Source: an uncultured Gammaproteobacteria bacterium
Lineage (GTDB): Bacteria; Pseudomonadota; Gammaproteobacteria; PS1; Pseudothioglobaceae
Reading direction: 5' to 3'
Length of the DNA stretch: 48,159 nt
Assembly: GCA_937896195.1 (NCBI GenBank)
Contig: CALBNC010000095.1
Span: forward strand, 1-48,159
Shown: in pieces, positions 12,004 through 14,723 of the stretch
Layout of the letters: every line of letters starts with the position of its first letter
How positions within the stretch are numbered: the stretch's first letter is position 1
Notes under the pieces: generated by a model
What the model saw: the letters and a program-made list of their open reading frames with translations, nothing else
Told to the model about the DNA's origin: nothing
The model's database searches: none
Made by a program: the position numbers and the translations under genes

Positions 12004-13458
12004 ATGAATAAGACAATTTTTAACGAATATATTGACCAGGGTTATAATCATATACCAGTATTTAGAGAGGTTGTGCTTGATACTGATACCGCATTAGGTC
12101 TATATTTAAAATTAGCAAACAATACCTATAGCTATCTATTTGAATCAGTTCAAGGTGGGGAGAAATGGGGTCGATATTCTATTATCGGACTTCATGCTCA
12201 AACTGTGATCAAAGTGTTTGATTATGAGATTCAAATAGAAAAAGACTCAAATATTATCGAGCGTTTTCAGGTGGAAGATCCTTTAGCGTGGATCGAACAA
12301 TATCAGCAGCAATTTAAGGTACCTGAAATTGCTGATTTACCAGAATTTAATGGCGGGTTAGTCGGATATTTTGGCTATGAAATCATTCGCTATATTGAGC
12401 CTAAGCTCAAAGATATTCAGCTTAAAGATGAGCTTAATATTGCTGATATTTTGTTAATGGTGTCAAATGATTTAGTTGTATTTGATAACTTAGCAAATAA
12501 GGCGTTTTTATTGACACATGTTAATCCTGAAATCCAAAGTTATGATCAGGCAATGGCTTATCTTGATACCATCGAAGCAGATATTGATCGACCGCTTGTT
12601 AAACAAGATTATCAGTCAGACAACCTAACGACACAAGATTTTAGCTCCAGTTTTGGTGAACAAAATTATAAAGATGTTGTTGAGCATATTCAGCGCTATA
12701 TCGTTGCTGGGGATGTTATGCAGGTTGTGCCTTCTCAAAGACTAAGTGCACCTTATAAAGCACCGTCAGTTGAACTTTATCGTCAGCTTAGAAGGCTCAA
12801 TCCTTCTCCTTATATGTATTATTTAAATCTAGGCGATGTTGATATAATCGGCTCATCCCCTGAAATTCTCACACGAGTTGATTCACAAAGGCGTGCTACT
12901 GTTCGTCCAATCGCAGGTACTAGGGCTCGAGGTAAAGACCCAGCACATGATCTAGCACTTGAAAAAGATTTATTAGCTGATGAAAAAGAAATTGCTGAAC
13001 ATTTAATGTTGATTGATCTTGGTCGAAATGACCTTGGAAGAATTGCCAAAACAGGCAGTGTTAAATTAACCGATAAAATGTTTGTTGAGCGCTACTCTCA
13101 TGTCATGCATATTGTTTCTAATGTGGAGTGTGATCTTAAAGATGGTATGAGCGCAATGGATGCACTAAAGGCAACTTTTCCTGCCGGCACACTGAGTGGT
13201 GCACCAAAAGTTCGAGCCATGGAAATTATTAATGAGGTAGAGTCGCTTAAGCGCAATATTTATTCTGGGGCAATTGGCTACCTATCTTGGCATGGTAGCA
13301 TGGACATGGCGATCGCTATTCGTACTGCTATTGTTAAAGATGAGATGCTCTATGTGCAAGCAGGCGCAGGCATTGTGCATGATTCTGTCCCCCAATTGGA
13401 ATGGGATGAAACAATGCATAAAGCACAAGCTTTAATCGCTGCCGCTATAAAAGTATAG
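12004..13458 (+). CDS. trpE: Anthranilate synthase component I
   Basis: TrpE converts chorismate, with ammonia from TrpG, into anthranilate, the first step of tryptophan synthesis. The 484-aa product has the N-terminal regulatory region with FESVQGGEKWGRYSIIG (the tryptophan-feedback area). The C-terminal chorismate-binding domain contains VPSQRLS, SSPEIL, RPIAGTRARG, LIDLGRNDLGR, PAGTLSGAPKVRAMEI and GAIGYLS. The feedback-site motif and length favour TrpE over PabB. No trpG, trpD or trpC is adjacent, so the other trp genes must lie elsewhere. There is no clear ribosome-binding site before the ATG, which lies 27 bp after the rpoC terminator. Confidence 0.93.
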   Translation: MNKTIFNEYIDQGYNHIPVFREVVLDTDTALGLYLKLANNTYSYLFESVQGGEKWGRYSIIGLHAQTVIKVFDYEIQIEKDSNIIERFQVEDPLAWIEQYQQQFKVPEIADLPEFNGGLVGYFGYEIIRYIEPKLKDIQLKDELNIADILLMVSNDLVVFDNLANKAFLLTHVNPEIQSYDQAMAYLDTIEADIDRPLVKQDYQSDNLTTQDFSSSFGEQNYKDVVEHIQRYIVAGDVMQVVPSQRLSAPYKAPSVELYRQLRRLNPSPYMYYLNLGDVDIIGSSPEILTRVDSQRRATVRPIAGTRARGKDPAHDLALEKDLLADEKEIAEHLMLIDLGRNDLGRIAKTGSVKLTDKMFVERYSHVMHIVSNVECDLKDGMSAMDALKATFPAGTLSGAPKVRAMEIINEVESLKRNIYSGAIGYLSWHGSMDMAIAIRTAIVKDEMLYVQAGAGIVHDSVPQLEWDETMHKAQALIAAAIKV

Positions 13459-13532
13459 GCGCAATATAAACATTTAATAATGTAGTTGCATTTACGTTAA
13501 AAATGTATAACATAGGTTAATTAGTAGGGTTT

Positions 13533-13560
13533 AACCCCTGTTATGGGGTTTATTTTTTTA
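13533..13560 (+). terminator. Hairpin with T-tract in the sox leader
   Basis: AACCCC (13533-13538) pairs with GGGGTT (13545-13550) around a 6-nt loop, followed by TATTTTTTTA. This looks like a rho-independent terminator. It ends only about 6 bases before the soxX ribosome-binding site, leaving no room for a promoter between them. It may end trpE transcription, attenuate sox transcription, or both. Confidence 0.75.
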
Positions 13561-13578
13561 TATAAAGAGGAGAGAAAC

Positions 13579-13926
13579 ATGAAGAGAACTATTTCTTCCA
13601 TTTCAGCAGTAGCCGCTCTAGCCGCATTATTTGTAATGCCGTTACAAGCTGGTGCTAAAGAAATGACAGACGAAGAGGTTACTTTTGGTCGTAAAGCGGG
13701 TAATTGTTTAGCATGCCATATGATTCCAGGCGGAAACCTGCCAGGTAACATTGGTCCACCACTTCTTGCAATGAAAGCAAGATTTCCAAATAAAGCTGAT
13801 TTAAGAGCTCAAATTTGGGATGCAACAGCAAAAAACCCAAATACAATCATGCCTCCTTTTGGAAAGCATGGTGTTTTGTCTGATAAGCAAATCGATCAAG
13901 TGACTAACTATATTTACACAAAATAA
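13579..13926 (+). CDS. soxX: Sulfur-oxidation c-type cytochrome SoxX
   Basis: SoxX is the small cytochrome of SoxXA, the periplasmic enzyme that oxidatively couples thiosulfate to the SoxY carrier cysteine. The 115-aa product has a signal peptide (about residues 1-26), one heme-binding motif CLACH (C43, C46, H47) and a likely axial methionine, M91, in IMPPFGKHG. The C-terminal helix LSDKQIDQVTNYIYT is typical of class I cytochromes. I chose the ATG at 13579 because it follows a strong AGAGGAGAG site; the in-frame upstream codon would lie in the hairpin. It starts the soxXYZA-K cassette. Confidence 0.93.
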   Translation: MKRTISSISAVAALAALFVMPLQAGAKEMTDEEVTFGRKAGNCLACHMIPGGNLPGNIGPPLLAMKARFPNKADLRAQIWDATAKNPNTIMPPFGKHGVLSDKQIDQVTNYIYTK

Positions 13927-13936
13927 GGAGAATAAG

Positions 13937-14383
13937 ATGCAAAGAAGATTATTTCTAAAAAGCGCAATGGCAGGTTCTGCAGTTGCAACAGCAGTAGGCG
14001 CAGGCTTACTAACACCTTCAATGGTATTTGCAAACACTGCAGATTTTAAAGCGAAATCAGATGCAGCAACTGCATCTATAGCGGCAGCAGGCAAGGGTTC
14101 ATTTCAATTTAAAGCGCCTAAAATCGCTGAGAACGGTGCAGTAGTTCCAGTAACTGTAGATGCGTCTAAGATGGAAGGCGTGACAAACATCTCTATCTCT
14201 GTTACTAAAAACGGTACACCTTTAGCAGCTTCTTTTAATATATCTGGTAGCGCTCAAGGTTATGTTTCTACTCGTATTAAAATGGGTACAACATCTCCAG
14301 TGGTAGCATTAGTTACTGCAGGTGGAGTAACTACTCAAGTTACTCAAGAAGTTAAAGTAACAATTGGCGGCTGTGGCGGTTAA
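13937..14383 (+). CDS. soxY: Sulfur carrier protein SoxY
   Basis: SoxY carries sulfur intermediates as a covalent adduct on a C-terminal cysteine while Sox enzymes act on them. The 148-aa product has a twin-arginine signal (RRLFLK at residues 3-8, hydrophobic stretch to about 32), consistent with folding with SoxZ before Tat export. It ends with the GGCGG swinging arm, its cysteine at residue 146. A TAAGGAG site precedes the ATG, 10 bp after soxX. All catalytic features are intact. Confidence 0.96.
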   Translation: MQRRLFLKSAMAGSAVATAVGAGLLTPSMVFANTADFKAKSDAATASIAAAGKGSFQFKAPKIAENGAVVPVTVDASKMEGVTNISISVTKNGTPLAASFNISGSAQGYVSTRIKMGTTSPVVALVTAGGVTTQVTQEVKVTIGGCGG

Positions 14384-14420
14384 TTCGGTAACCGAATCAA
14401 ACAAATAAGGAGAATATAAG

Positions 14421-14723
14421 ATGGGATCAATTAAATTAAAACCAAAAGCAATAAAAGGTGTAATCGGTATTAAGGCGCTTATTAAGCACCCTATGGAAAC
14501 TGGTTTACGTAAAAATAAAGGTAAATTAGTACCTGCAAATCATATTGTACATATGGTAGTTTCTCATAACGGTACAGTTGTGGTAGATGCAGATATTGGT
14601 AGTACTATTTCTAAAGATCCGTATTTTAAGTTTGATGTTGCTGGCGCTAAAGGCGACACAATCGAACTTAAGTACAAAGACAACAACGGTAAGACCGGTT
14701 CTGAGACTGCAAAGTCTTCGTAA
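14421..14723 (+). CDS. soxZ: Sulfur carrier partner SoxZ
   Basis: SoxZ forms a heterodimer with SoxY and presents the SoxY arm to SoxXA and SoxB. The 100-aa product has no signal peptide, as expected of a protein exported with SoxY through Tat. It has the family's immunoglobulin-like beta pattern, including KALIKHPMETGLRK and VVSHNGTVVVDAD near residues 16-62. A TAAGGAG site precedes the ATG, 37 bp after soxY. Confidence 0.95.
   Translation: MGSIKLKPKAIKGVIGIKALIKHPMETGLRKNKGKLVPANHIVHMVVSHNGTVVVDADIGSTISKDPYFKFDVAGAKGDTIELKYKDNNGKTGSETAKSS

Follow-up and report, generated by a model that had tools for sequence, protein, structure and literature searches.

Competing hairpins in the sox operon leader of SUP05-type bacteria, a plausible candidate for an attenuator-like arrangement

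The closest described counterparts of the leader studied here are attenuators of the 5' terminator class, the subject of a 2010 survey by Naville and Gautheret (PMC2965389); in the available text of that survey 5' terminators average -16.5 kcal/mol and 7.0 bp, and 'sox' is absent from its main text. The sox leader resembles these attenuators in carrying a terminator-like hairpin with a T run (hairpin H2), oriented as the gene is, and an overlapping alternative hairpin (H1). It differs from them in being very short, with ~30 bases before the T run, in its weak stem, and in that no sensor domain was seen in it; an Rfam search of the leader gave no match, and no leader peptide was seen in it by eye. 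E. coli ompA is the type case of a 5'-terminal stabilising stem-loop. Several mRNAs are stabilised by 5' stem-loops, according to the available part of PMC7509114, and H1 likewise lies a few bases from the predicted transcription start; it differs in that, within the window's genus, part of it is shared with the terminator-like H2. In E. coli, A/U-rich enhancers act jointly with strong Shine-Dalgarno sequences (PMC2176067, in the portion available). The sox leader has a comparable U-rich stretch directly 5' of a strong AGGAG, with the difference that a G+C-rich stem abuts it. Finally, SoxR-type repressors control sox transcription in other proteobacteria (PMC10451225, in the portion available). 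These act on DNA; the candidate DNA element of the window lies 5' of the -35 box, and the window's own genome holds three ArsR-type HTH_5 matches. Our literature searches, mostly without full texts, found no paper on sox attenuation and no description of the control of sox in SUP05-type bacteria.

SUP05-type bacteria are important sulfur oxidisers in low-oxygen seas and in mussel and clam symbioses. The window, i.e., the whole 48,159-nucleotide stretch of DNA analysed, comes from an uncultured gammaproteobacterium of the Pseudothioglobaceae. NCBIfam models scored above cut-off for trpE, soxX, soxY, soxZ, soxA and dnaE, while the match of the SoxK-like SoxAX-binding protein was under its cut-off (53.6 vs 95 bits). 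The best named SoxX relatives, the first three of them at 91-95%, come from Candidatus Thioglobus and further genomes of SUP05 type. The features of the locus are as follows:

12004-13458, + strand, trpE, the upstream gene (TIGR00564, 560 bits, cut-off 517.7)
13464-13485, + strand, AT-rich element, a possible UP element or regulator site, with columns conserved in divergent leaders
13486-13491, + strand, candidate -35 box TTGCAT; its TTGC was required by the search, and it recurs across soxX loci
13508-13513, + strand, candidate -10 box TAACAT, spacing 16, aligned with TATTAT, TATCAT or TATGAT of relatives
13522-13543, + strand, hairpin H1, TAGTAGGG-TTTAAC-CCCTGTTA, 8 pairs, two of them G-U
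13533-13550, + strand, terminator-like hairpin H2, AACCCC-TGTTAT-GGGGTT, 6 pairs, 4 of them G-C, loop of 6
13551-13559, + strand, T tract TATTTTTTT (T-A-T7), 3' of H2, with the T run at 13553-13559
13564-13572, + strand, soxX ribosome-binding site AAAGAGGAG, seen in the sequence and conserved in the alignment of relatives; AGGAG is 13568-13572
13579-13926, + strand, soxX, first of soxXYZA plus the SoxK-like gene (TIGR04485, 99.3 bits, cut-off 61); its start codon ATG is 13579-13581

Of 83 genomes of the family, 48 have soxX, the window's included, and we examined the leaders of all 47 others. Their groups include g1 (the window's genus), g6 (judged to hold the clam symbionts Ruthia and Vesicomyosocius), g9 and g10. 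A second soxX copy (L130), which lacks trpE and in which no promoter was found, was excluded before counting. All 47 other loci have trpE in front of soxX and in the same orientation, at a distance of 123 to 367 bases where the match begins at the first residue. In sox-less genomes of group g5 (L178-L182) dnaE directly follows trpE, the sox operon being a block gained or lost between the two. In 44 of the 47, soxX is preceded by a TTGC box paired with a -10-like one (no TTGC promoter was found in L089, L113 and L115), hence in 45 of 48 genomes with the window's own, and a T tract precedes the ribosome-binding site in 40 of these 45 leaders (all except L105-L108 and L128). The 40 leaders with both features were reduced to 33 representatives of <75% identity, and the combined p and z values given below treat these as independent, though they are still partly related.

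The original prediction placed a sox promoter before or inside the hairpin, so that the leader would carry a terminator; the relatives support a place before it. Besides the boxes found upstream in 45/48 genomes, the distance from the -35 box to the ATG is 83-99 bases in all but one of the 33 representatives (leaders pre-selected for promoter and T tract), as against 1.6% of shuffles. A box spacing of 16 occurs in 26 of them and one of 17 in the other seven, and the -10 box reads TANNAT in all but one. The search required TTGC and gave preference to TANNNT, so the presence of these letters proves nothing; the evidence for a promoter is its fixed place and its conserved neighbours. Within the 22 bases before the -35 box (-22 to -1), several columns are common to 31-33 of the 33 divergent leaders, giving the family consensus ATATTA-N3-TTT-N-AT-N-A-N-AG, the first block of which reads ATATAA in the window. 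Conservation of this element (13464-13485) exceeds that of the hairpin, and sox may in fact be controlled here, through an UP element or a site for a regulator; a search for it elsewhere in the genome was matched by its reversed control (14 vs 15 hits). As for the boxes originally proposed, TTGCAT at 13486 was retained, while TATAAC at 13506, which is present, would leave a spacing of only 14. TAACAT at 13508-13513 is the better -10 candidate, because of its spacing of 16 and its alignment with the relatives' boxes. From these boxes we infer a transcription start at about 13519-13521, near 13520, which would place the hairpin inside the sox transcript. As in leader attenuators, a terminator-like hairpin then stands between promoter-like boxes and the first gene.

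The predicted hairpin and T-rich tract next to the soxX ribosome-binding site were confirmed. The arms AACCCC (13533-13538) and GGGGTT (13545-13550) form a stem followed by TATTTTTTTA, and the tract ends eight bases before AGGAG; in keeping with the sequence pattern of intrinsic terminators, the stem is G+C-rich and a T7 begins 2 bases beyond it. A scan of 12500-14600 returned five terminator-like sites, one hairpin accounting for two of these, where shuffled sequence would yield 1.5. When the window's leader was shuffled, an equally stable stem against the T tract arose with p 0.073 in a first test and mid-p 0.065 in a later one, which superseded the first after a misplaced T-tract anchor in L088, L090 and L092. 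In the window's sequence alone H2 is thus near chance and suggestive only, and its weight comes from the relatives. With -9.2 kcal/mol and 6 pairs, less stable and shorter than the average that the available text of PMC2965389 gives for 5' terminators, H2 would be a weak terminator.

The attenuation originally proposed would need an alternative pairing, and a competing hairpin was indeed found: H1, which begins a few bases from the predicted 5' end of the transcript. Both hairpins use CCC 13536-13538, making them mutually exclusive. We compared the pairing energy of native arms with that of chimeras whose arms come from different genomes; this arm-swap test replaced the counting of pairs on an alignment, because MAFFT puts the arms one or two columns off wherever the loops are of unequal length. 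Over the 33 leaders, native H1 arms paired on average at -8.65 kcal/mol and chimeras at -5.89 (p 5e-5), with p 5e-5 in g1/g10 and 0.007 in g9; the test does not fix the exact position of H1, given that splits elsewhere also reached p 0.0002-0.0004. The corresponding values for H2 were -4.22 and -3.33 kcal/mol (p 0.0035), with p 0.018 in g1/g10 and a non-significant 0.15 in g9. The two exclusive pairings are thus kept by paired changes, H2 with the exception of g9. In shuffle tests H2 gave a combined z of 4.32 over the 33 representatives (3.56 in the seven g1 leaders, 2.43 in g10, 1.98 in g9), and the fold formed ahead of the T tract, which is chiefly H1, gave z 7.18 over all 33 and z 1.55 (p 0.06) in the seven g1 leaders. 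The window's own H1 is not better than its shuffles (mid-p 0.661).

Of the two pairings, that of H1 is the more widely kept. H2 is convincing chiefly in the window's own genus, where it is strong, and in certain neighbouring groups; many other relatives have a weak H2 or none, and a contiguous-stem test gives 14 of the 33 representatives a score of zero. Judged by these comparisons, H1 characterises the family at large, and H2 the genus of the window together with part of g10. A leader at a contig end (L177, genome G075), which stands outside all tests, has H2 directly against a T8.

Fold sampling, an equilibrium rather than a kinetic calculation from the predicted start, covered 20 chosen leaders of the 40. 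In the window, H1 occupied 0.99 of the sampled folds before the G run was made, and H2 1.00 once the T tract was reached. H1 formed first in all 20 leaders (0.59-1.00). By mid-T-tract H2 had replaced it in L129 (0.93), and likewise (0.80-1.00) in seven of the nine further leaders of g1/g10 whose H2 is clear; it did not in the remaining two, L086 (0.22) and L088 (0.07). H1 stayed dominant to the end (1.00) in the vesicomyid L098 and L099 and in L121 and L122 of g9. When upstream RNA was added to the folds of 13 leaders, H2 changed irregularly among relatives. A longer antiterminator reaching into the promoter region (fold of 13486-13600) was set aside on this account and because it uses bases 5' of the predicted start. 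H1 might instead be a DNA operator, which seems less likely: a change in one arm is matched in the other, and the loop varies by eye between ~5 and 12 bases, as would be more natural for RNA.

The reading we favour, and to which we give a little under an even chance, is that of a bistable leader in which, in the window's genus, H2 would partly end sox transcripts. The sigma-70-type promoter (TTGCAT 13486, TAACAT 13508) would give soxXYZA-K a leader of ~59 bases, in which H1 would form first as the RNA leaves RNA polymerase. The emerging GGGG strand (13545-13548) would then pull the shared CCC from H1, setting H2 against the T tract as a weak intrinsic terminator, at which part of the transcripts would stop near 13557. 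The remaining transcripts, held in H1, would read through, such that H1 would act as the antiterminator and the balance between the two hairpins would set sox output. The T tract is probably also a U-rich aid to translation, and the conserved leader as a whole probably helps to set the amount of sox message. The Rfam search and the inspection by eye for a leader peptide brought up no trigger for the switch.

If sox transcription began inside the hairpin, as the original prediction also allowed, or after it, the hairpin would not be part of the leader; a TATAAA-like string at about 13561-13566 could serve such a start. We consider this highly improbable, for g9 leaders do not retain the string, in contrast to the promoter further upstream, which relatives retain, and RNA begun after the hairpin would lack part of the ribosome-binding site (13564-13572). 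It was also suggested that the hairpin merely ends trpE transcription; H2 would then overlap the sox leader by chance and insulate sox from trpE. This fits the constant place of trpE directly upstream, the lack of any other terminator-like site between the trpE stop and soxX in the window, and three vesicomyid loci with long gaps (L096, L099 and L101) in which a separate site precedes the promoter and H2 is weak or absent. We nevertheless regard it as unlikely. Among the 35 genomes in which soxX was not found, we sampled 11: five, all of g5, have trpE followed by dnaE, L183 also has dnaE directly after trpE, L177 carries a sox leader at its contig end, L176 ends inside the promoter, and three yielded just a distant TrpE relative. 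None of the five g5 trpE-dnaE gaps holds a terminator-like site, so that trpE needs none there and the hairpin appears to come with sox instead of simply belonging to trpE. Moreover, many g9 leaders with a short gap have a weak H2 or none and no other strong site, and with the promoter lying upstream, sox RNA would cross the hairpin regardless.

A more serious alternative, which may quite possibly be correct, is a leader that does not terminate: H1 would protect the mRNA from decay, the T tract would enhance translation, and H2 would be a by-product of the G and T runs. Both roles have precedents in the 5' stem-loops and A/U-rich enhancers introduced above (available portions of PMC7509114 and PMC2176067), and H1 is conserved more widely than H2. 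The T tract persists in vesicomyid leaders with a decayed H2, and in the four Vesicomyosocius-type leaders L105-L108 the G run and T tract are gone, with the promoter and H1 still in place. A search of the window's own genome for T6 before AGGAG and ATG returned, besides soxX, atpE-, rplJ-, csp-, ahcY- and nitrate-transporter-like genes (named by eye), and since these other T tracts mostly come without such a hairpin, the non-terminating leader remains a strong rival. Taken together, these observations fit an mRNA that is stabilised and well translated nearly as well as they fit attenuation. It would predict the opposite of what the window's genus presents, where H2 lies above shuffles and H1 not clearly so, and where H2 abuts the T tract even with changed letters that still pair (e.g., AGTTCC/GGGGCT in L088). 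Because it is H2, not H1, that stands out in this genus, we lean slightly towards partial termination.

The sox leader is therefore a new candidate, plausible though modest, for a known attenuator-like arrangement, and an ordinary rival follows it closely. If partial termination is real, the stop built into the leader would offer a simple point at which to control sox. A broader version, in which competing 5' and terminator hairpins form a family-wide cis-acting RNA that would set sox expression of SUP05-type bacteria after initiation and was lost in the most reduced clam symbionts, appears to us rather doubtful; decay of the switch in the smallest symbiont genomes would fit a loss of regulation.

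Terminator-like sites beside ribosome-binding sites are uncommon, not unique. Among 189 gene starts with ATG and a Shine-Dalgarno sequence in ~448 kb, eight have such a site within 75 bases upstream (one at the edge of its DNA stretch), and in about four of the eight it is close to the ribosome-binding site: sox and argD-, metK- and rplY-like genes (by eye). At about 1485-1699 of L144 (G000:C3), near a contig end, the sox promoter is almost duplicated, as TTGCAA-N16-TATCAT together with the element in front of it; the stretch that follows showed no ORF >60 aa within reach and no Rfam match. In a related genome, argD-, rplY- and metK-like genes (L157, L165 and L171) have terminator-like hairpins immediately before their ribosome-binding sites. 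Within the window itself, at 2490-2552, an A+T-rich hairpin, GAAAGTTGTA-ATAA-TATGACTTTC, and a T6 (near 2524) stand close before the ribosome-binding site of the rplJ-like gene.
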